A stretch of 64,000 nt of DNA from Actinocorallia herbida (GTDB lineage Bacteria; Actinomycetota; Actinomycetes; Streptosporangiales; Streptosporangiaceae): positions 5,022,001-5,086,000 of the forward strand of contig NZ_RJKE01000001.1 in NCBI RefSeq assembly GCF_003751225.1, written 5' to 3'. Made by a program: the position numbers and the translations under genes. Under the pieces are notes generated by a model. The model was not told the DNA's origin and ran no database searches. It saw only the letters and a list, made by a program, of their open reading frames with translations. Positions 3,238-41,063 of the stretch are shown in pieces; positions within the stretch are counted from its first letter, which is position 1, and each line of letters begins with the position of its first letter.

Positions 3238-4005
3238 ATGACCGCACCCGGAACCCTGACCGCGAACCTGGCCGGAAGGGTCGCGGTCGTCACCGGCGCG
3301 TCCAGCGGCCTGGGCATGCGGTTCGCCGAACTGCTCGCCGGCTGCGGCGCGACCGTGTTCGCCGCGGCCCGCCGCCGCGAGCGGCTGGACGCCCTGGCCG
3401 ACCGGGTCGACGGCATCGTCCCGATCACCTGCGACGTCACCGACGCCGACGCCCGGCAGGAGCTGCACGACGCGGCACGCTCCTACCAGGGGGCCGTCGA
3501 CCTGCTCGTGAACAACGCCGGGCACGGCGAGGGCAAGCCCGCCCTCGAGGAGACGGTCGAGGACTTCGAGCGCACCCTCACGCTGAACCTCACCGCGACG
3601 TTCGCGCTGGCGACCCTGTTCGGCCGTTCGATGATCGAGGCGGGGCAGGGCAGCATCGTCAACATCGCCTCGATCCTCGGCATGGTCGCCGCCGCGCCGT
3701 CCTCGCAGGCGTCCTACTGCGCGGCGAAGGGCGGCGTGGTGAACCTGACGCGGGAGCTGGGCTGCCAGTGGGCGAGCACCGGCGTCCGGGTCAACGCGAT
3801 CGCGCCGGGCTGGTTCCCCAGCGAGGTCACCGAGGACTTCTTCGCCGACGAGAAGGGCGGCTCCTGGGTGCGGCGCAACACCCCGATGGGCCGGGTCGGC
3901 CGCTCCGACGAGCTGGACGGCGCGATGCTCCTGCTGGCCAGCGACGCGAGCTCCTTCATGACCGGGCAGATCCTCGCCGTCGACGGCGGGTGGACCGCCC
4001 GCTGA
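3238..4005 (+). CDS. SDR-family oxidoreductase (3-ketoacyl reductase-like)
   Basis: This 255-aa classical short-chain dehydrogenase/reductase has the cofactor motif TGASSGLG near residue 20, a central NNAG, a catalytic Ser segment (IVNIASILG) and the YxxxK catalytic pair in SYCAAKGG. An Arg-rich loop after the first strand (AARRRERL) suggests NADP(H) use, which is inference. GGAGG lies just before the ATG. It follows the thiolase directly and could oxidise a 3-hydroxyacyl intermediate ahead of thiolysis. It is well conserved to the C-terminal VDGGWTAR. The exact substrate cannot be read from sequence. Confidence 0.92.
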   Translation: MTAPGTLTANLAGRVAVVTGASSGLGMRFAELLAGCGATVFAAARRRERLDALADRVDGIVPITCDVTDADARQELHDAARSYQGAVDLLVNNAGHGEGKPALEETVEDFERTLTLNLTATFALATLFGRSMIEAGQGSIVNIASILGMVAAAPSSQASYCAAKGGVVNLTRELGCQWASTGVRVNAIAPGWFPSEVTEDFFADEKGGSWVRRNTPMGRVGRSDELDGAMLLLASDASSFMTGQILAVDGGWTAR

Positions 4006-27162: not shown

Positions 27163-30100
27163 TCAGGGGCGATGGCGCCGGTACAGGCGTTCTGCCACGA
27201 CGGCGCCGATGGCCACCACGACGACGAAGGCCGCCCTGGCCACCTCGCCTTCGAGCAGGAGGCCGCCCAGGACGCCGCCGATGAACAGGGCGGCGAAGGC
27301 GTTGGACAGGTGACCCAGGGTCCGGTGTCCGGTGCGGGACCACAGGAGCAGGACGCCCGCGGCGCCGAGTGCGGCCACCGTCTCTGCGGCGGGCACCGCC
27401 CAGTCGTCCGCGGGGAGGCGCAGCGCGACCCTCACGGCGCTGAACAGGGCGTAGCCCACCGCGGCGATGCCTCCGAAGGTATGCCAGCGCACCGCGGCCA
27501 GCCGCTGGAGCAGGTGCGAGGCGGTGCCGGAGGAACCGCGCGGACGGCGGGGCACGAGCGCGGCGACCCTGACATCGGGATGGACCAGCGCGGCCAGGAG
27601 CGAAAAGAAGATCGGTGCGAAGACCAGCCCGCTCAGCGCGTCCTCCGCGGCGGGGTCGAGGAGATAGGCGCCGACGCCGGCCGCGGCGAGGAGGACGAGC
27701 CCGCGCGACGCCGCCACCCGCAGCCGCGACCGGCGCGCCCTGCGCGAACGGTCGGAGGAGTCGCCGCCGAACGCGGGGTTCTGCAGGTGGGCGGGATTCG
27801 CGGAGAAGTCCCCGCAGAGGTACAGCGCGACGGCGAGGAGCATCGCGAGCAGCGGCAGGAGCCACGGCCAGGGCTCCCTTCCCCACCAGAACTGGAGGTT
27901 CGCGATCGGGTGCAGGAAGGCGTTCGGCGCGTCGGCCGGTGGCAGGACCAGACCCAGCAGGCCGGCGTTGATCCCCAGGAACCAGGCGACGCCCCTGAGC
28001 ATCCCGCTCGCGAGCGCGGGCGGCCCGATCGTCCCGGCGGCCAGGCAGACCGCCGCGACGCCCGCCGCGGCGGACGCGTACCTCCAGTCCGCGCCGGGGT
28101 GGCCGGGTGACAGCATGTTCATCTGCCGCCCCAGCCCCGCCCAGAGCATCGCGGCCGTGATCCCGCCCACCGGTGCCGCGAGTGCCAGGGCGAGCCGGAG
28201 ATTCAGCCGGTAGGCGGACGGATGCCGGACCGCCGCCAGGAACGGGAAGGCCGCGCCGAGGCACAGCAGCACGCCGCCGACCGCGTCCCACGTGCCGGGG
28301 CCCACCGGTTCGAGGAGCGGCGCCGGCCCTTCGGTGTAGGCGGGGATCAGGACGACGAGCGACGCCGACGGCCAGGGGACGCCGCGCGGGCCCCGCCAGA
28401 GGGCGACGAGCAGGGCGGCTCCGGCGATCCCGTAGCCCGCCAGCGTCCCTACGTCGCCGCGCGCCCTGACGGCGTCCGAGGTCAGGAGCACGGTGCCGGT
28501 CGCGCCGAGCACCGGCGCCAGGTAGCCCAGGAGCGTCCCGGCCCGTTCCGGCCGCGACTTGGCGGCGACCAGAGCGCCGAAGGCGCACGCCAGCAGGACG
28601 GTCACCCCGGACAGCGGGGACGCCTTCACATCCGGCGTGTCACGGGCGGTGAGGCTCACCGTGACGACCGCGCAGATGAGCAGCCCGAGCCAGAGCGAGA
28701 CCCAGTCGGGCCACCGCGGGCCCAGCCGCCGCCGGACCGTTGCGCGCGCCCGGACCGACCCGGCCCAGGCCGCCTTCGTCCACCGGTCCGGGGCGTGCTC
28801 CGGCCCGCCTTCCCGGACGGCGTACTCGGCCCACGCGGCGGCGCTCTCGTACTCCTCCGCGCCGGTGTGGGCACGAACGAGCAGCGACGCCGTCCGCGGC
28901 GCGACCGGCGTCTCCGCCACCACGGTCTCCAGGCGGTCGAGCGCGTACCCGGGGAGGCCGACCGCGAGCGCCCGCGCCGCGACCCCTTCCTCCCACCGCG
29001 CCGTGAACCCGGCGGTCTCCGCTCCCCGGACCAGTCCGGCCATCCGTTCGGCGTCGCCGATCTGCCCGTGCGCCAGCAGGAGGTCCGCCGCGGTCAGCAC
29101 CGCGTCGACCGCGACGACGTCCCGGGTGGGCGCCCGCCAAGGCCGCCCGTACACGTCGCCGGCCCGCCGCAGCACGGCGAGCGCCGCCCCGCGCGACAGC
29201 CCATCCGAGCGGGCGAGCCCGACGAGCGCGACGAACCGTCCGCGCCGATCGCCGATCGCCTCGGCCCGTGCCGCGGCCTCCTCGAATGTCCGCCGGGCCT
29301 CGTCCGCCCGCGCGCCGGCGCGCAGCACCCCGGCCAGCGCGATCAACGCCCGCACCCGCTCCACCGGCCGAGCCGCCGCCGCGAGCCCGACGCCCGGTGG
29401 GCCACCGTCCGAGCGCGGCGGCGAGTCGGCCTCCCGCGCCCGGCCGTCGACCGGTGCGGTGCGGCGGTCCACCGGCGGGCGGGCATCGGCCGTGACGGCG
29501 TGGCCGTCGGACGGTGCGGCGAGGACGTCCACCGGCGGGCGGGCCCGCGCGGGCCCGGCGCGGGGGGCGGACAGCGGGCGGAGGAGCGTCTCGGCCGCCG
29601 CGAGGTCGCCCAGCGCCGCGAGGGCTTCGGCCTCCACCAGGAGACCGGCAGGGACCGGGGAAAGGCGGGCGGTCCGCAGCGCTTCGGCCGGGTCGCCCAA
29701 GGCCAGGTGGGCACGCGCGCGCAGGGCCAGGGAGCGCGGGGATTCGGGGAGGACGGCCAGGGCTTCGGGCCAGTCCCCACGGTGGGCGTGGCAGCGGGCT
29801 TCGGCGATGCGGAGTTCCGCGACGGCCTCGGGGCCCGCGGCCTCGGCCGAAGCGACGGCCTGCTCGAGCAGCCGCGGGAAGTCCTCGGGAAACTCGGTCA
29901 TCTCGTACAGTTCGGCGAGTCTCGTAATGAAGCGCCAGGTGTCGTCGGCCTCGGGACGGGCGGCCTCGGCCGACGCGGCTCGCGTGACGTCGCCGACGCC
30001 GGCGAGCGTGTCGGCGTCGAGCACGGCGTCGAGTTCCCGCAGGCGCAGGGCGCGCAGCCGCGCCGCGGACTCGGCGGCCTCCTCGGGGACGCGCAGTTCG

Positions 30101-31206
30101 TTCGCGAACTCCCACAGCAGATCGTGCAGCCGGTAGGACGCGTCGGCCGGCTGCTCCACGAGGTGGCGGGCGTGCAGATCGCGCAGCATCTCGGCGGCCT
30201 CGCGCTCCGGCACGCCGGCCAGCGCGGCGGCGTCCGCGGGCCTGACGTCGCGCAGGTCGGACGCGAGGAGCCGGAACATGCGCTGGAGTCCCGGCGTCAG
30301 GCGGCCGTACCCGGCGGTGAAGATCGCGCGGATCGACCTGCCCGGATCCTCCCGGGAGGCCATGAGGTCGAGTCCGTGCTCGGCCAGGTCGGCGTCCAGT
30401 TCGGCCAGGGAGACATCGGCCCGGGAGCGGCCGAAGGCCGTCGCGACGACCAGGTGGACCGCGAGCGGGAAGCAGCCGCAGCGGCGGACGATCGCCGTCG
30501 CCGCCTGCCGTTCCGCGGCGACCCGCGCGGCGCCGGTCGGGGCGCCGTCCGCTCCGTCCGGCGGGTCGAGGGCCCGGGCGAGCAGGCCGAGCGCCTCGCG
30601 TTCGGGGAAGGAGCGGACCGCCACGTGCGTGGCGGCGCGCAGACCGGGCAGTTCGGTCCGGCTCGTGACGAGGAGGACGCTGTCGCTGGAGACGCCGGTG
30701 AGGGGCCGGATCTGGGCGGCGTCCGCGGCGTCGTCCAGCAGGACGAGCAGGCGGCGGCCCGCGATCGCCCGCCGGTAGCGCGCCTCGTCGCCGCCCTCGG
30801 CGGCCGGGACGTGGAGGCGGCCGCACAGTTCCGCGAGCAGTTCCCCGGGGGCGACCGGCTCGGCCGTCGAGCCTTTCAGGTCGAACCGGACGACCGCCTC
30901 GAACGAGCCGCGGAACCTGGCGTCCGCCTCGTTCATGAGCGTCGACTTGCCGGCGCCGCCGAGGCCGTCCAGGACGACGACCCTGATCGCCTCCGGTGTC
31001 CGCCTGCTCGGCCGCAGGACACGCGCGACGGCCTTCAACTCGGCGGACCTGCCGTGGAAGCGGTCCCTGGAGACCACCGGGTCGGACTCGATCGGCCGTC
31101 CGGCCGGATCGGTCGCCGCGTTGAGCGTGAGGTCGCCCCGGACCCGGGACCAGAGCACGATCTGGAAGACCCGCCCGCCGCGGCGCCGCCTCCAGCGGTC
31201 AGCCAT
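27163..31206 (-). CDS. STAND (NB-ARC-type) ATPase with polytopic membrane C-terminus
   Basis: This 1347-aa protein has Walker A GLGGAGKST (81-89), Walker B RRLLVLLDDA (151-160), a TSR sensor segment (181) and GCFPLAVHLVVA, the GLPLA-like motif, so the first 400 residues are an NB-ARC/STAND switch. Residues about 400-840 are helical repeats rich in Ala and Leu (TPR-like, e.g. AELRIAEARCHAHRGDWPEA). From about 849 to the end there are at least ten hydrophobic segments. Most bacterial STAND proteins have an enzymatic or TIR effector; here the likely effector or anchor is the membrane domain. Its ATG overlaps the end of a small membrane-protein gene by 8 bases, so translation is coupled. Possible defence or stress sensor; function not known. 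Confidence 0.85.
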   Translation of the reverse strand: MADRWRRRRGGRVFQIVLWSRVRGDLTLNAATDPAGRPIESDPVVSRDRFHGRSAELKAVARVLRPSRRTPEAIRVVVLDGLGGAGKSTLMNEADARFRGSFEAVVRFDLKGSTAEPVAPGELLAELCGRLHVPAAEGGDEARYRRAIAGRRLLVLLDDAADAAQIRPLTGVSSDSVLLVTSRTELPGLRAATHVAVRSFPEREALGLLARALDPPDGADGAPTGAARVAAERQAATAIVRRCGCFPLAVHLVVATAFGRSRADVSLAELDADLAEHGLDLMASREDPGRSIRAIFTAGYGRLTPGLQRMFRLLASDLRDVRPADAAALAGVPEREAAEMLRDLHARHLVEQPADASYRLHDLLWEFANELRVPEEAAESAARLRALRLRELDAVLDADTLAGVGDVTRAASAEAARPEADDTWRFITRLAELYEMTEFPEDFPRLLEQAVASAEAAGPEAVAELRIAEARCHAHRGDWPEALAVLPESPRSLALRARAHLALGDPAEALRTARLSPVPAGLLVEAEALAALGDLAAAETLLRPLSAPRAGPARARPPVDVLAAPSDGHAVTADARPPVDRRTAPVDGRAREADSPPRSDGGPPGVGLAAAARPVERVRALIALAGVLRAGARADEARRTFEEAAARAEAIGDRRGRFVALVGLARSDGLSRGAALAVLRRAGDVYGRPWRAPTRDVVAVDAVLTAADLLLAHGQIGDAERMAGLVRGAETAGFTARWEEGVAARALAVGLPGYALDRLETVVAETPVAPRTASLLVRAHTGAEEYESAAAWAEYAVREGGPEHAPDRWTKAAWAGSVRARATVRRRLGPRWPDWVSLWLGLLICAVVTVSLTARDTPDVKASPLSGVTVLLACAFGALVAAKSRPERAGTLLGYLAPVLGATGTVLLTSDAVRARGDVGTLAGYGIAGAALLVALWRGPRGVPWPSASLVVLIPAYTEGPAPLLEPVGPGTWDAVGGVLLCLGAAFPFLAAVRHPSAYRLNLRLALALAAPVGGITAAMLWAGLGRQMNMLSPGHPGADWRYASAAAGVAAVCLAAGTIGPPALASGMLRGVAWFLGINAGLLGLVLPPADAPNAFLHPIANLQFWWGREPWPWLLPLLAMLLAVALYLCGDFSANPAHLQNPAFGGDSSDRSRRARRSRLRVAASRGLVLLAAAGVGAYLLDPAAEDALSGLVFAPIFFSLLAALVHPDVRVAALVPRRPRGSSGTASHLLQRLAAVRWHTFGGIAAVGYALFSAVRVALRLPADDWAVPAAETVAALGAAGVLLLWSRTGHRTLGHLSNAFAALFIGGVLGGLLLEGEVARAAFVVVVAIGAVVAERLYRRHRP

Positions 31207-32962: not shown

Positions 32963-35900
32963 TCAGGTGGTGATGTCGTAGTAGCGGGTGAAGAAGGTCT
33001 TGAGTTCTTCGAGGTAGGGGGTGAGGGTGGGGAAGTTGGCGCGGACGGCGGTATCGAGGGCGGCGGTGAGTGCGGTGCGGGTGCCGGTGTCGGCGCCGAG
33101 GTAGGGCTTGAGGCGTTCGGCGAGGTCGTTGTGGCTGTTCATGCCGAGGGCGAGCATGGCCTTGGTGAGGCTGGCCGGGGCGTTGGAGGAGACGGGCGGC
33201 AGGACGCGGCTGACGAAGGTGACGCGGTGCAGGATGCGCCAGCAGGGGGGTTTCTGGGCGGTCTGGCGGGTGGCCTGGAGGGCGCGGGCGTTGGCGGAGG
33301 TGTCGGTGCGCAGCCAGTCGGGGTCGACGACCTTGCCGTAGAAGTCCTCGAAGTTGTCCTTGCTGGTGTCGAGGTAGAAGGTCATGAACCGGTAGGCGTC
33401 GACGCGTCCCGGGGTGAGGACCGGCTTGTTGTTCGCGTCGAACTGCGGGACGCCGTTGACGGTCTTCTGCAGGTCGCTCTCGGGGGCGCAGGAGACGTCG
33501 AGGCTGAAGGAGCGGGTGGCGTCCTTGGACTTGCTGCGGGTGACGCTGTATCCGCCGCCCAGGCTGACCTCCCAGCCGGCCTTGAAGCCGAACGCCCAGG
33601 CGCTGCTGCCGTACATGCCGCCGGCGGTGAGGCTGCCGTTGACGCTGTAGGAGCCGCCGGTGGTCTCGGTGACCTGGTCGACGGTCCCGGTGGTCTCGGC
33701 GAAGAACCCTCCGGCGGCGGTCCACACGTAGGTGTTGGCGAGGTTGCGGCGTGCGGCCGCGCTGTTGGCGCGGCGCCCGGCCTCCCGGTTGCGGTCGCCG
33801 GCGTCCGGCGCGCCGCCGGGGCCGCCCGTCATCGAGGCGCGCACCCGGTCGGCCTGGGCCTGGACGGGGTCGGGGACGCCGGTCTCGGTGGAGACGGAGT
33901 CGTAGTAGCCCTGGAGCTGCTGCTGCTCCCGCTCGATCCGCCGCTTGAGCTGGTAGGCCTCGCGGACGCGCAGGTAGCTGTACTCGCCTCCGTCGCCGGC
34001 GGTGGGGAAGCTCGGGTCGCGGAAGGCGTCGGCGGTCCCGTCGGCCTTGGGCGCGCCGAAGCCGATGAGGCCGTCGAGGGTTCCCTGCTTGGTGTAGCGG
34101 GGGTTGATGGGGAAGGGGATGAGGTTCCAGTCGCGGGGGATGTCGGGGCTGGGGAGCATCCGGTAGGCGACGAGGGCCTGGTTGTGCTCCAGCCGCAGCG
34201 CGTACACGTCGGCGGTGTCGGACTGGACGACGGCGAACCCGGTGTTGGCGGGCACCCACCGGCGTCCGGCGGCGGCGTTGACCTGCTTGGCCGTCTCGGC
34301 GGGCTCGTAGTTCCCGGCGAGGGACACCTTGCTGCTGCGGGTGGTGTCGGTGCCCTGCGTCACCGAGACGCCGTTGCTCCAGCCGTTGGAGAAGCCGAGC
34401 TCCGCGGTGACCTCGTGGTCGATCTGCCAGGAGACGACCGGTGTGGCGACGCCGACGATCGGGATCGGCGGCACCATCTTGATCATGTACTCGTCGCCGG
34501 CGACGGAGGTGGTGAACTTGGCCTTGGCGGACATGTCCACGCTGGTCTCGTGGTCGGAGGACAGGGTGTTGGAGACGCTGTCGGCCTGCACGAACTCGAC
34601 CGAGGTGCTCTCACCGTACTGGGTGGGGTCGTCGGACCCGTCGTGGATGAGGTTCTCCGACGGGACCGGAGGCGCGCCCTCGATGTAGCCGACGAGCTGC
34701 GGGTCGAACTGGGCCTGCCCGACCCAGGTGGTGGTCAGGTCGCCGACCTTGTAGCCGGTGTGCAGGTGCCAGGCGCCACCGCGCACGTAGGTGTAGGAAC
34801 GCTTCATCACCCCGGTCACGCCGCCGTGCGGGAGCCGCTGGACGTCGGCGTACTCGGTCGCGGCCGGGACCGCGGAGACCAGGGAGTTGAACCGGGTCGC
34901 GATCCCGGTGAGCGCCGAGCGGACCTCCGCGATGTCCTGGGAGATCGGCGCGGTGCACAGCACCGGCGTGGGCGGGGGCGTCGACGGGGTGAGGTCGTTG
35001 CCGATCAGCCCGTCGTCGCGGACCAGCGCGCCGGCCGTGGTCGAGGCGCCGTCGAAGGGGTAGTAGGCGATGAGGTCCTCGCGCCTGCCGCGGAGCCGGC
35101 CGAAGAGGTTGTCGAGCACCTGCTCCTGGGTCCGCGCCGTGCGCCACACCCTGAGTTCGTCCATCTCTCCGGTGAAGGGCTCGGCAGCTGTGCCGTCGGT
35201 CTTCTTGAACGCGCCGACCGTGAACTGGTCGGCGCCGCGCCCGGCGGCGGCGAACGGGTCCCCGGGGGCGGTGAGGACGGCGGCCGACGGGGTGCCGTTC
35301 TGGTAGAAGGTGAAGGTGCTGGCCGCCGGGTCGGGGGTGCGGGTGCGGGTCGCGCCCCACAGCCGTCCGGGGTAGGTGTCGCAGGCGTCCGCGGTGGTGC
35401 CGCCCTCGGTCTCCGGGAACGTCCACCACGCGAGGAGGCCGTCGGCCTTGGCGGTGATGGCGGCGCCGATCTGCTTGGCCTCCCGGGCGGTGTTCCAGAT
35501 CCGCGCCTCCGACAGCACTCCCCTGAGCCCGAACTCGGCGGCCCCGACGAGCCGGCGGCCCAGCTCTGCGTTCGCGTCATTGCCGACGGGCTTGGTCCCG
35601 GTGTAGTCGTGGGCGTTCGCGGCCACGCCGTTGATGTAGAAGCGGATCTCGGTGATGCCCGAACGCCCGTCGTTGGGCCGGTTCTCGTTGGTGCGGCGGG
35701 TGACGGCGACCTTGGTGAACGCGCCGGCGGTGATCTTGGTGCCGGACAGGAACGTCCTGGTCTCGGCCTTGCTTCCCGATCCGGTCTCGAAGGCGAAGCC
35801 GATCTGGCCGTCGTTGTTGACGTAGAGGGAGTACGGCACGCTCCCGGGCTTGCCGGAGCCGAAGGTCCCCTTGCCGACCAGGCCCTGGACGGGGCCGATG

Positions 35901-38900
35901 TCGTCGACGCGGATGTTCGCCTCGATGGTCAGGTCGTCGACCAGGTCGAGGCCGTCGGCGCCGCCGCAGTCGATGTAGGAGGCGCCGTCCAGCCTCATCG
36001 CCCACGCCTGCTGGAAGGTCAGCGCGAGGTGGGACCAGTCGCCGGCGGTGAAGGCGTCCACGCTGCGCACGTACTGGTCGCCCACGGACCCGATGAGCCG
36101 GTAGCCGGTCAGCCCGGACGTGGCCAGGACCCGGCCGGCGGCGAGCCTCCCGTCGTTGCCGTTCCCGGTACGGTCGGCCGCCGACAGGTTCGCGAAGTTC
36201 CAGTAGGCGGTGAGGCCGGGCTCCCGGCCGCTCGCCCGGCGGCGGCGGTAGGCGTCGATCTCCGTCTGGGTCCTCGCCCGGTTCCAGACGCGGACCTCGT
36301 CCAGTTCGCCCTGCATCGCCGAGCCGAAGGCGTTCGCTCCCAGGTAGATCACGCCGGTGCCGGAGTATCCCGTGGCCGGGGTGTCCTCGGCGACCTTGAC
36401 GCCGTCGCGGTAGATGAAGCGCTTGTTGGTGCCGGCCTCCTGGACGACCGCCCAGTGGTGCCAGTCCTGGTCGGTGTAGGCGGCGGAGGTGAGGAGGTAT
36501 CCGCTCGTGGAGTCGCCGACGGTGAACCGGTTGGCGGAGGTGAGGCCGACGACGAAGGAGGACGTGGAGTTCTCGGTGCCGTGGCCGAACGCGTGGTTGG
36601 TGCGGGAGACCGCGGTCGGCCTCATCCAGAACTCGATGGTGAATCCGGTGCCCAGGGCGAAGGCGGTCGCGCACTTCACCGCGTCCCCGGTCGTTCCGTT
36701 GAACGACAGCGCGCTGCTGACCGGGGTGCCCTCCAGCCCCAGCCCGTAGCCGGAGGAGGGGCCGTTGGCGTGCAGGATCCTGGACCGGCCGGTCGTGGCG
36801 GTCGGCCTGGCCCACGCCTCGATCGTCAGGTCGCCGTCGGCGGCGGCCTTGGGCAGGGAGGCGGCGGGCAGCGCGAGGGACTGGCCGCCGGTGAAGGCCA
36901 GCGACCGGCCCGGGGAGGCGCCGCGCCACCGCGGGGTGAGCGCGGGCGCGGCGTCGGCGGCGACGCCGTCGGGCACGGCGGCCACCGCCTTGCCTGCGGA
37001 CGCGCCGACGATCTTCGAGCCGCTCGACAGCGACACCCCGGGGACGGTGCAGGTGGCGAGGGCGAAGTCGTAGGCGAGCGTGCGGATCTCGCTGCCGGCC
37101 GCGACGTCGAGGGAGCCGACGGACACCGTGAACGTGGTGGCGCCCGAGGCCGCGGCGGCGGACACGGTGCGGGCGCGGTCGCCGATCCGCACCGCGGTCC
37201 CGGCGGCCAGCGGCCCGGCCAGCGGCGCGGCCAGCGTGACCGTGCGGTCCGCGACCGACTTCACCGCGCCGATCACCGTCCCCGCGGGCAGGTCCCCGCT
37301 GAGGACGGCGGCCGCCAGGTCGGCGCGTCGCGGCACGCCGGGGAAGGTCTCGGAGACGGTGCCGCGCGCCACGACGATCTTGCAGGTGTCGGAGGTGGCT
37401 CCGGCCGACACCGTGACCTTGATGTCGGCGGTGTTCACCGCGGGATCCCGGCCCGCCAGTTCCAGGGTGCCGTCGGTCAGGGTGATGCGCTTGCCCGCGC
37501 GGGAGACCGAGGTGGCGTAGTAGGCGGAGAAGAACTGGCCGTCTCCGCCGCGGAAGTACAGGGCGACGTCGCCGTTGGCGCTGTCGAGCAGCGACGGGGT
37601 CTCCGCGGTCCAGGCGAACGTCAGCAGCGCGCCGAAGGTGCTCAGCCCGCTGCGGTCGCTGGAGACGACGGGCATGGGCAGGACCGGCTCGGTGTCGCCG
37701 AGCATGCCGCCCGACAGCGTCGACAGGTTGTTCTGCGCGGCGGTCAACGCCGCCTGGTTCGTGGTGGCCCGCTGCTGGGCGGCCCGCATGTTCGCCACGC
37801 TCGGCTCGACGACGGCCAGCTCCGCCCGGAGCAGGCGCTCGCGCTCACGGGTCCACCAGTCGGCATAGATGCAGAACTGGTTGTACGCGACCAGGTACAG
37901 ATAGCCCTGGTGGGGGAGTCCGTACATGGCCCTGACGTCGTAGAGTCCGAAGTAGATCTCGGCGAGGCGTTGGGCCATCGCCGGCTCCTGGTCGGCCAGG
38001 GCCCGGTCGGCGTCCAGCGCGATCTGGGCGGAGGCCACCGCGTCCTGCGCGGCGCTGATCCGCTCCAGCCCCGACGTCGGGTCCGGCAGGCCGATCGGGG
38101 CGAGGTCGATCGTGTCCGGCACGGCAGACAGCCGCCCGTCGGTGCCCACGGCGAAGTCGACGGTCGACACGTACGAGCGGGCCGCGTCCCCGCCCGCGGG
38201 GGCCGGCCCGGAGGTGGCGAAGGCCAGCAGCACCCGCGCCTGCCTCTTCTCCTGGGTGGGCGCGCCGCCGTAGCCGGTGACCATGGGCTCCTGCTGGTGG
38301 TACAGGAGCGCGGACAGGCCGGTCACGACGGTCCTGCCCTTGATCGCGAACGTGTCGCGCGCCAGGCCGGGGCCGTCACCGACCGGGGCGTCCGAGGTCA
38401 CCCACACCGGGTCGGAGCCCAGGTGCGACGCGGTCCGCAGGTTGGCCGTCTGGTCGGCCAGGGAGGTTCCGGCGCCCTCGTCGAACCGGTAGTAGGCGAC
38501 CAGGCCGCTCTCGATGCCGGTCAGGCGGCGGCCCCGGTCGGCGAGGTCGGTCGGGGTGCGGGCCGTGCTCCAGATCCGCACCTCGTCGATGTCTCCGCTG
38601 AATCCCTGGGCCTGGGCGCCGGCGGTGTCCAGGCGGGCGGCCAGCACCAGCCTCCCGCCCGGCTTGGGCACCGCGGCCCGCGCGAGGGAGCCCTGGGAGG
38701 CGCCGTTGAGGAACAGCTCCAGCTTCGTGCCGTCGAAGACCGCCGCCACATGGCTGAAGACGTCCTTGGCCACGACCGCCGTGCCGGTCAGCGACCAGGT
38801 CTGCCCGTCCTGGGCCGCCTTCAGCTTGCCCTGGGCATCCAGGGACAGCTGGAAGCCGTCTGTGTCCCGCTCCTTTTCACTTGCGAGGATCACGCCGCCG

Positions 38901-39994
38901 TACGCGGCCGGCCGCACCCACGCCTCGACGGTGTACCGCCCGGTGTCCGCGAGCGCCTTGGCCGGCGCGCCGATCAGCACGCGGGAGGAGCCGGCGAACC
39001 GCAGTGCGGTGCTCGCCCGGTCGGTGGCTGCGACGACCGGGACCATGGGCCGCTGGGTGTTGGGGTCGATGCCCTGCTCCCGCTCCAGCACCGATCCGGC
39101 GAACCGCGGGTCCGGGCTGGTGTAGAGCTGGGTGCCGACCAGATCGAACAGGCCGTCGGAGGTCCGGTCCAGGTTGAACGACTCGATCCGCCCGGTCGCC
39201 GCGTTGTGCGCGAAGAGCTGCCAGCGCGACGCGCCGGACACGATCGTGGGCAGGATGAGGGCGCAGAACGCGCCCTTGGCCAGCTTCGGCGCGAACGACA
39301 GGCGCAGCGTCGGCTCGAAGAACTGCTCGCCGTGCATGTCCCGGGTACCGAGCGTGTCGCCGCCGGACGCGGGGACGGTCTTGTCGCGGCTGCGCTGGTA
39401 CCGCACCTCGACGACGGGCTTCAGCTCCGACCCGACCAGCACGTACCGGTCGACCAGCAGCGACGCGTCGACCGCCGGAGACTTCGCGCCGCCCGGCAGT
39501 TCCAGGTCCGCCCGCCCCGCGTCCCCCGACAGGCCGCCGCCCCGCACGCGGTACACGGCGTCGGCGTGGCCGTCGGCGATCGACTGCCGGAACACCAGGA
39601 GGTACCGGCCGTCGGACACGACCTGGATCGGCACGTCCGCGGTCAGGCGGGCCGTCGTCGACAGGAACGGGTCCGCGTCGCCCGGCAGCAGCAGCTCCGG
39701 CCGCGTCTCCGCCCGGCTGCGCTTGCGGACCACCGGCATCGTCCGCACCTCGGTGACCCGCGGGTCGCAGTCCGCGATCTCCGCGGGGAACGGCAGCGGC
39801 ACCGGGTCGTCGTTCCAGTAGGCGACGTCCAGCGCCCCCCGCTCCTCGCTCCCCAGGTCCAGGTTCAGGACGCTGTAGTAGATCCTGCGGTCGGCGTCCA
39901 TCGCGAACGCCACCGCCGTCCCGTCATGCCGCACCATCGTGGTGGAAATGTACTTTTTGCCCCGGTAGGACCGGACAAGCTCTTTCTCGGACAA
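32963..39994 (-). CDS. Giant LamG-domain protein with nested LamG domains (2343 aa)
   Basis: The product has no signal peptide (MSEKELVRSYRGKKYIST). Residues 1-330 are an all-beta region with no known motif. A complete LamG/concanavalin-like domain lies at about 337-520 (YTVEAWVRP, GDIDEVRIWSTART, LVAYYRFDEG). A helical stretch covers about 640-770. From 1029 to 1645 there are three LamG domains, but one is split: its parts at about 1029-1091, 1291-1329 and 1556-1645 are separated by two complete LamG domains (1092-1290 and 1330-1555). The last 650 residues have Ser/Thr-rich alternating segments and glycine-rich strands, then a helical end. It stands alone on its strand. LamG folds bind glycans or proteins; the role is unknown. 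Possibly a surface or toxin-like protein exported by a non-classical route. Confidence 0.85.
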   Translation of the reverse strand: MSEKELVRSYRGKKYISTTMVRHDGTAVAFAMDADRRIYYSVLNLDLGSEERGALDVAYWNDDPVPLPFPAEIADCDPRVTEVRTMPVVRKRSRAETRPELLLPGDADPFLSTTARLTADVPIQVVSDGRYLLVFRQSIADGHADAVYRVRGGGLSGDAGRADLELPGGAKSPAVDASLLVDRYVLVGSELKPVVEVRYQRSRDKTVPASGGDTLGTRDMHGEQFFEPTLRLSFAPKLAKGAFCALILPTIVSGASRWQLFAHNAATGRIESFNLDRTSDGLFDLVGTQLYTSPDPRFAGSVLEREQGIDPNTQRPMVPVVAATDRASTALRFAGSSRVLIGAPAKALADTGRYTVEAWVRPAAYGGVILASEKERDTDGFQLSLDAQGKLKAAQDGQTWSLTGTAVVAKDVFSHVAAVFDGTKLELFLNGASQGSLARAAVPKPGGRLVLAARLDTAGAQAQGFSGDIDEVRIWSTARTPTDLADRGRRLTGIESGLVAYYRFDEGAGTSLADQTANLRTASHLGSDPVWVTSDAPVGDGPGLARDTFAIKGRTVVTGLSALLYHQQEPMVTGYGGAPTQEKRQARVLLAFATSGPAPAGGDAARSYVSTVDFAVGTDGRLSAVPDTIDLAPIGLPDPTSGLERISAAQDAVASAQIALDADRALADQEPAMAQRLAEIYFGLYDVRAMYGLPHQGYLYLVAYNQFCIYADWWTRERERLLRAELAVVEPSVANMRAAQQRATTNQAALTAAQNNLSTLSGGMLGDTEPVLPMPVVSSDRSGLSTFGALLTFAWTAETPSLLDSANGDVALYFRGGDGQFFSAYYATSVSRAGKRITLTDGTLELAGRDPAVNTADIKVTVSAGATSDTCKIVVARGTVSETFPGVPRRADLAAAVLSGDLPAGTVIGAVKSVADRTVTLAAPLAGPLAAGTAVRIGDRARTVSAAAASGATTFTVSVGSLDVAAGSEIRTLAYDFALATCTVPGVSLSSGSKIVGASAGKAVAAVPDGVAADAAPALTPRWRGASPGRSLAFTGGQSLALPAASLPKAAADGDLTIEAWARPTATTGRSRILHANGPSSGYGLGLEGTPVSSALSFNGTTGDAVKCATAFALGTGFTIEFWMRPTAVSRTNHAFGHGTENSTSSFVVGLTSANRFTVGDSTSGYLLTSAAYTDQDWHHWAVVQEAGTNKRFIYRDGVKVAEDTPATGYSGTGVIYLGANAFGSAMQGELDEVRVWNRARTQTEIDAYRRRRASGREPGLTAYWNFANLSAADRTGNGNDGRLAAGRVLATSGLTGYRLIGSVGDQYVRSVDAFTAGDWSHLALTFQQAWAMRLDGASYIDCGGADGLDLVDDLTIEANIRVDDIGPVQGLVGKGTFGSGKPGSVPYSLYVNNDGQIGFAFETGSGSKAETRTFLSGTKITAGAFTKVAVTRRTNENRPNDGRSGITEIRFYINGVAANAHDYTGTKPVGNDANAELGRRLVGAAEFGLRGVLSEARIWNTAREAKQIGAAITAKADGLLAWWTFPETEGGTTADACDTYPGRLWGATRTRTPDPAASTFTFYQNGTPSAAVLTAPGDPFAAAGRGADQFTVGAFKKTDGTAAEPFTGEMDELRVWRTARTQEQVLDNLFGRLRGRREDLIAYYPFDGASTTAGALVRDDGLIGNDLTPSTPPPTPVLCTAPISQDIAEVRSALTGIATRFNSLVSAVPAATEYADVQRLPHGGVTGVMKRSYTYVRGGAWHLHTGYKVGDLTTTWVGQAQFDPQLVGYIEGAPPVPSENLIHDGSDDPTQYGESTSVEFVQADSVSNTLSSDHETSVDMSAKAKFTTSVAGDEYMIKMVPPIPIVGVATPVVSWQIDHEVTAELGFSNGWSNGVSVTQGTDTTRSSKVSLAGNYEPAETAKQVNAAAGRRWVPANTGFAVVQSDTADVYALRLEHNQALVAYRMLPSPDIPRDWNLIPFPINPRYTKQGTLDGLIGFGAPKADGTADAFRDPSFPTAGDGGEYSYLRVREAYQLKRRIEREQQQLQGYYDSVSTETGVPDPVQAQADRVRASMTGGPGGAPDAGDRNREAGRRANSAAARRNLANTYVWTAAGGFFAETTGTVDQVTETTGGSYSVNGSLTAGGMYGSSAWAFGFKAGWEVSLGGGYSVTRSKSKDATRSFSLDVSCAPESDLQKTVNGVPQFDANNKPVLTPGRVDAYRFMTFYLDTSKDNFEDFYGKVVDPDWLRTDTSANARALQATRQTAQKPPCWRILHRVTFVSRVLPPVSSNAPASLTKAMLALGMNSHNDLAERLKPYLGADTGTRTALTAALDTAVRANFPTLTPYLEELKTFFTRYYDITT

Positions 39995-41063
39995 CGGCTC
40001 CCTTTCTCTTCATCGTGCCGTTCCGCAGATTCACACACGCGAAGATCCACCCGGGCAAGAAAAGGATTGGACACCGTCCAACCGAAATCACCGAGCGGGC
40101 GACGACCAATCTCGCACGTGATCTTCCGAAGATCACTTTCGGTGAGAAGCCGACGCAGCCCGCTGCGCCGATTCAGCGGCCCTGACGCCGATGGCCCGGG
40201 TCAAGCGCATGTCTCGTCGATGAATGGAGCCCGATATTTGGCAGGCCAAGCAGTCCTGCTGCATCTGGTCCGATGGCTGGTCGGCGGCAAGGGAAGCCGA
40301 AAGTCATTGAATAGAGGAGTCGGGTTGTCCTCCAAATGCAAGGAGCGTCCTTCCTAGCTGATGAAATCGCCAGTTCATGCAGCCTTTGCCCGAGTTGCCG
40401 TCACGGATACATGCGGCTAGCTCCAAGGTATGGGAGGCCTTGCCGCGACGGGTAGTTGAAGACCTCGAGGCCGATTCACTTGCGGAGCCTCGCGATCGGG
40501 CGATTTGTGGCAAAAGCGCAGAATGAATGTCCACTGCGGCCTGCATTGCAGCATTCGATAACAATATTTCTATTGATCCTATTTGTCTGGTTGGCGTGTT
40601 TTGGCTCGTCGCGATGAACTCGATCGGCGATAGGTGCATCTCGCCCGTCGTCCGGCCGCTCCCGGGCCTGGTGGCCGTAGCGCCGGCGACGGATTTAAGC
40701 GGGGGGTGCGCACTGTCATGTCAGTTGCGGTCTGGGGCGGGGGATTCGGTCGTGTCGTCGGCGGCCTTGGTCATGGTGTTGGAGATTGCCCTTTTCGTCC
40801 GGCGGAGCCGCGTGAGCTGTTCTGCAGGGAGACGTGGAGGGCGGTCGCACGGGCGTGTGGTCCGGCTGGGGGGAAGGCGAAGGGGAACTGCGGCGGTGGC
40901 GCTGCCAGATGAGGGCGTTGCCGCTCAGTCTCAAGATCGATATCGGCGCTGCTCATCGTCGACTTCGTCCCCGCCAACGGCGACCGGCCCAGGCCCCAAC
41001 GTGGTCGTGCCTTCCGGAGCGGCCGCGTTGGTGATCACGGCTGGGTGATAGTCGAGTTCGGTG
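39995..41063. other. Gene-free stretch with lowered GC
   Basis: About 1.07 kb upstream of the giant gene has no convincing coding frame. Within it, 40360-40620 drops to roughly half GC, against more than 70 percent around it, and contains runs such as CAATATTTCTATTGATCC. Open frames here lack the third-position GC bias of the window. It probably holds the promoter of the giant gene plus foreign or decayed DNA. Confidence 0.55.

Follow-up and report, generated by a model that had tools for sequence, protein, structure and literature searches.

A LamG domain divided into three pieces by two complete LamG domains in a large protein of Actinocorallia herbida

Domain insertion, in which one domain interrupts the chain of another, is usually seen in a frozen state, and in most cases insert and host belong to different families. 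In the portions consulted, a 2026 survey of such A1-B-A2 arrangements (PMC13114784) presents insertion as common, allows multiple inserts and describes nested cases; 65.8% of its 48,551 insertion events join different H-groups, so that up to a third may join relatives, and its inserts are smaller than their hosts (median 115 versus 199 residues). No case of a family inserted into itself is given in those portions, and no report of a LamG within a LamG was found in the titles and abstract openings searched, mainly of the open-access literature. LamG domains have first and last strands that are adjacent and antiparallel. Here we describe a 64,000-nucleotide stretch of the Actinocorallia herbida genome (contig NZ_RJKE01000001.1, positions 5,022,001 to 5,086,000; hereafter the window), in which a single frame encodes a 2343-residue protein with a nested LamG block: one host LamG split by two complete LamGs. 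The block shares with the surveyed insertions an interrupted host chain and more than one insert, and differs from them, as far as the portions consulted go, in that inserts of about 205 and 230 residues lie in a same-family host of about 180 residues and that one site shows turnover. It is a form of domain insertion not met in the literature searched. A sequence-only reading had proposed the arrangement and called it very unusual, a phrase that needs care in view of the surveyed share of insertions that may join relatives.

The reading frame is uninterrupted along its full length, in a genome assembled as one 9.8-Mb contig. The gene was judged real because GC at its third codon positions is 0.97 in a codon-position screen and because full-length relatives exist in other genomes; a plus-strand open reading frame (window 33131-40357, 2408 amino acids) failed this screen and was set aside as a high-GC shadow of the real gene. 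The parts of the nested block are as follows.

Window 32963-39994, minus strand: whole reading frame, 2343 amino acids, TTG start (open reading frame and codon-position analysis).
Window 35048-36895, minus strand: nested block, residues 1034-1649.
Window 36728-36895, minus strand: host LamG piece A, residues 1034-1089, ending ..GYGLGLEG (Laminin_G_3 profile 2-52).
Window 36110-36727, minus strand: insert 1 at residues about 1090-1295, a complete LamG replacing the first hairpin turn (profile 4-150).
Window 36008-36109, minus strand: host LamG piece B, residues 1296-1329, TGYRLIGSV..WSHLALTFQQ (profile 65-90).
Window 35318-36007, minus strand: insert 2 at residues about 1330-1559, a complete LamG replacing the second hairpin turn (profile 3-150).
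Window 35048-35317, minus strand: host LamG piece C, residues 1560-1649, TFTFYQNG..YYPFDG (profile 91-150).

The residue numbers first proposed for these parts lie within a few residues of those above; the DNA interval given with them, 36500-39994, corresponds to residues 1-1165 and had to be replaced. The two inserts stand side by side in one host, and neither contains a further insert.

Pieces A, B and C were scored separately, never joined, against the Pfam profile Laminin_G_3 (PF13385, 151 positions; curated cut-off 27.6 bits). A scores 25.6 bits at positions 2-52, B 15.3 bits at 65-90 and C 30.6 bits at 91-150, so that the three tile a single domain-wide profile in order and without overlap, whereas insert 1 (83.6 bits, 4-150) and insert 2 (63.4 bits, 3-150) each match it completely and also have LamG- or pentraxin-type fold matches. 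A control model, built from uninterrupted LamGs only (the family's N-terminal domains and two cyanobacterial domains, with nested-block sequences excluded), gives 15.9, 11.7 and 42.5 bits for A, B and C, and none of 2000 shuffles of each piece reaches these values. Piece C (residues 1604-1661) also matches the solved LamG-type protein 4dqa, a putative carbohydrate-binding protein of Bacteroides ovatus, by sequence (E 2.1e-6); with 4dqa, the PAPP-A LamG and the pentraxins the protein shares the fold alone (at most 22% identity in the rows shown). The host pieces together, like both inserts, cover the Laminin_G_3 profile, and the host differs from an ordinary member in being split in three by members of its own family. 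Among 13 LamG matches in the genome, the eight in other frames are all nearly whole, whereas two of the five in this frame are partial, piece C appearing as profile 90-150. It is almost certain that one host LamG is split here by two complete LamGs.

The relatives bear directly on this reading. Insert states were compared in 28 proteins (27 plus L049), which include near-copies such as L033/L035 and L038/L039. Both inserts are present in 16, insert 1 is missing from 10 (L032-L037, L044, L049, L071, L072), and two (L047, L048) show uninterrupted LamGs only. In these ten, a single profile hit takes in A and B and stops at position 97-99 of 180, insert 2 starts no more than one residue past it, and a loop of about 8-10 residues links the two strands at the empty site 1 (nine of the ten aligned); for insert 1, the host chain is thus continuous in relatives that lack it. 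The Streptomyces clavuligerus plasmid pSCL4 carries both states, in gene copies with (L042) and without (L049) insert 1. One further copy (L041) is found in the pSCL3 record. That A and B singly fall below the Pfam cut-off, whereas C exceeds it, counts against a split host, and would suit a row of four contiguous units in which two complete LamGs lie among LamG fragments too decayed to fold as one. The host itself has not been fold-matched to a solved structure, as the fold searches took in the inserts, which also leaves room for decay. This alternative is nevertheless very improbable, given that the piece order is retained in relatives as distant as Calothrix, that A+B is one contiguous half-domain in 10 of the 28 proteins, and that one clade unites 21 of the 23 C pieces (support 98; the other two are the long-branched L040 and L045).

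For an orthologue, AlphaFold2 gave a model of medium confidence (mean predicted local distance difference test score, pLDDT, 71.7; predicted template modelling score, pTM, 0.57). Its strand order agrees with one host sandwich, and its host strands continue unbroken into the first and last strands of both inserts, so that each insert would stand in place of a hairpin turn. Fold matches to sialidases, dimethylformamidase and acylase were read as the common jelly-roll only. With profile tiling and the relatives lacking insert 1, the model bears out the proposed interruption of an outer LamG, and all three support its placement at turns; the further idea of self-insertion, in which the inserts would derive from the host domain, is conjecture. 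Strands crossing the host/insert borders unbroken might also mean a strand exchange or domain swap, the host being completed by strands from an insert or a second chain rather than forming a separate domain. This is unlikely, since both inserts have a complete strand set of their own, matching whole domains, and since B and C can still be aligned in relatives without insert 1. That the inserts replace hairpin turns and share strands with the host, as the model predicts, can be held with considerable confidence.

The histories of the two sites appear to differ. In a LamG tree (a quick search with 70 uninterrupted LamG domains), insert 2 is one clade (23 rows, support 99), and site 2 seems, from these sequences, to have been filled once, long ago. 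Insert 1 is not one clade: forcing its 14 rows together costs 70.1 log units (approximately unbiased (AU) test, p 0.000427). Ten actinobacterial rows group together (89, not starred); the Calothrix insert 1 pairs with the N-terminal LamG of its own protein (73) and is rejected from the actinobacterial group when forced into it (p 0.0095); and insert 1 of L038, L039 and L077 groups with an extra LamG that neighbours it in these proteins (98). A tree of the C-terminal region, in which L040 and L045 form long branches and the deep order is unsettled, puts the proteins lacking insert 1 at two separate positions (8 and 2 rows); a tree constrained to unite them is worse by 75.5 log units (AU p 0.000609), and the fewest state changes at site 1 number two. 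Because insert 1 is present in the deep rows as well (L043, L045, L040 and L038/L039/L077), two losses plus replacements or re-insertions make the simplest history. Site 1 has probably lost its insert on two or more occasions and contains LamGs of several origins, and it is likely to be a slot with turnover; the "serial" insertion of the sequence-only reading is better understood as repeated filling and emptying of this site.

The polyphyly of insert 1 could also come from gene conversion, which would weaken the case for refilling: a single old insertion, lost twice, would have been overwritten by LamGs of the same gene with no re-insertion. Occupation of site 1 in the deep rows and the pairing of the Calothrix insert with its N-terminal LamG both fit this account, which in turn requires site 1 to have remained occupied throughout these deep lineages. 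Conversion and re-insertion are not separated by these data, and the former has a substantial chance of being correct, somewhat below even.

A third site may exist. L038, L039 and L077 have an extra complete LamG between the apparent first strand of the host (..TPGTALSFDG in L077) and the rest of piece A, and the segment preceding it aligns with an uninterrupted first strand in Calothrix. By eye, the extra LamG seems to occupy a third host turn in these proteins; a simple tandem domain together with an extended first hairpin is a less likely but possible reading of it.

Several further observations weigh against the nested reading or parts of it. In the 16 two-insert proteins, a custom LamG profile detects A in 15 and B in another set of 15, often weakly; an i-Evalue of 0.01 is reached by A in 10 and by B in 11; no A is found in L075 and no B in L045. 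In L049, insert 2 is matched as two parts. No relative with a convincing empty site 2 was found among the 28 proteins, so that of the two kinds of insert-free homologue looked for only that of insert 1 came to light: insert 2 is missing only in L047 and L048, none of whose LamGs has been shown equivalent to the host, the first LamG of each being sister to the host C pieces in a short tree (87, not starred) and the last LamG of L048 grouping among N-terminal LamGs. AlphaFold2 modelled the window's own sequence poorly (mean pLDDT 53.4, pTM 0.38, from a 3-row alignment), ten-residue blocks of the host range from about 51 to 82 pLDDT in the orthologue model, and the packing of A, B and C as one jelly-roll is inferred from strand order and profile. 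For the LamG tree, six rows were dropped beforehand (of L040 and L045, and two extra L043 LamGs), and the Calothrix insert 1 row was flagged by the tree program for an odd letter make-up. Finally, no database match assigns the protein a function.

Even so, it is highly probable that the host jelly-roll is left and re-entered twice, with each insert at a hairpin turn, turnover at site 1 and a rigid cluster of LamGs as the product. The host chain would exit and re-enter twice, building a further complete LamG each time; the strand before a host turn would continue as the insert's first strand, and the chain would pass from the insert's end straight into the following host strand. Host and insert would then be joined through two-stranded ribbons without a flexible linker, an arrangement that the adjacent, antiparallel first and last strands of a LamG would allow. 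The outcome would be a rigid cluster of three or four LamG faces ahead of a conserved C-terminal region, most likely the multivalent binding head of a protein that shows no evident signal peptide. Observed here are the split, both inserts, the naturally empty site 1 and its turnover, and the sharing of strands is predicted; the closed host sandwich and the binding function are what we infer, and a role as a multivalent binder is put forward tentatively.

The remainder of the protein and its surroundings contain the following features.

Window 38477-39013, minus strand: N-terminal uninterrupted LamG, residues 328-506 (Laminin_G_3, 89.0 bits, residues 320-520 scored).
Window 32966-34957, minus strand: C-terminal region of about 660 amino acids, family-wide, with the motif GYIEGAPPVPSEN (no Pfam family found).
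Window 27166-31206, minus strand: large NB-ARC/STAND-like ATPase gene, 1347 amino acids, downstream of the LamG gene.

Neither a signal peptide nor a membrane segment was seen in the protein by eye and hydropathy, no signal-peptide program having been run (best 19-residue hydropathy mean 1.56), and the starts of seven relatives resemble its own in this respect. The C-terminal region is conserved from actinobacteria to one cyanobacterium and one alphaproteobacterium and is, from its sequence, a candidate new family: Pfam gave a weak row in one of 16 members, and solved structures gave a single chance-level row (E 0.39). It occurs in short pieces or with an internal stop at G509:C184 and G510:C87, and some copies thus look degraded. 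Over the whole protein, no non-LamG Pfam family reached its cut-off (several chance-level rows, E 0.02-0.2), PADLOC gave no match, and the NCBIfam models for TafC (over the N-terminal LamG) and pantothenate kinase were rejected as far below their cut-offs. Of the seven PHROGs families that matched, six have no known function and one is virion structural; the best stretches lie over or beside LamGs. No partner was suggested by the ten neighbouring frames scanned, whose matches include NB-ARC/STAND-like, PhyH-like, beta-lactamase-like, TetR, SDR and others, two frames being without a match.

Full-length relatives occur in Micromonospora rosaria, M. rubida and further genomes of the bacterial family of A. 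herbida, as well as in plasmid records of Streptomyces, Calothrix, Salipiger, Nostoc and Planktothrix (L041-L045, L047-L049). The C-terminal region was found in 19 of 341 own-family genomes, the present one included, and not in the two same-genus genomes listed among them; in a phylum-wide sample it was found in one of 296 genomes, again this one. The protein family is thus rare, and its distribution patchy. Near L041, L044 and L047 lie genes for a recombinase, integrase or transposase, in keeping with such a spread. The Calothrix protein (L043) extends about 1050 residues past the shared C-terminal region, with two more distant LamGs (residues 2900-3053 and 3526-3680). Opitutales frames of at least 2774 and 5026 amino acids (L004, L005) contain four and five LamG-like domains, for the most part at intervals of about 950 bases. 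Two scans of viral contigs found no relative, and LamG-type matches in 54 and 73 phage records, none covering 80% of the query, were mostly to structural proteins in the rows listed.

It is tempting to speculate that the LamG serves as a recurrent socket for LamGs, in which at least three hairpin turns can be replaced without a linker because the end strands of a LamG prolong the broken hairpin, with one to three inserts within one bacterial family and repeated refilling of site 1; the chances for and against this proposal are about even. If it is true, the socket would let the count of binding faces vary while the chain linking adjacent domains grew no longer. For annotation, the case advises caution, as a host LamG of this kind shows up as partial matches only. 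One protein family displays host, insert and empty site together, and turnover at a fixed position, even within a single plasmid. It is therefore possible to study in this family how one domain comes to accommodate another, what the junctions require and what an extra face contributes.
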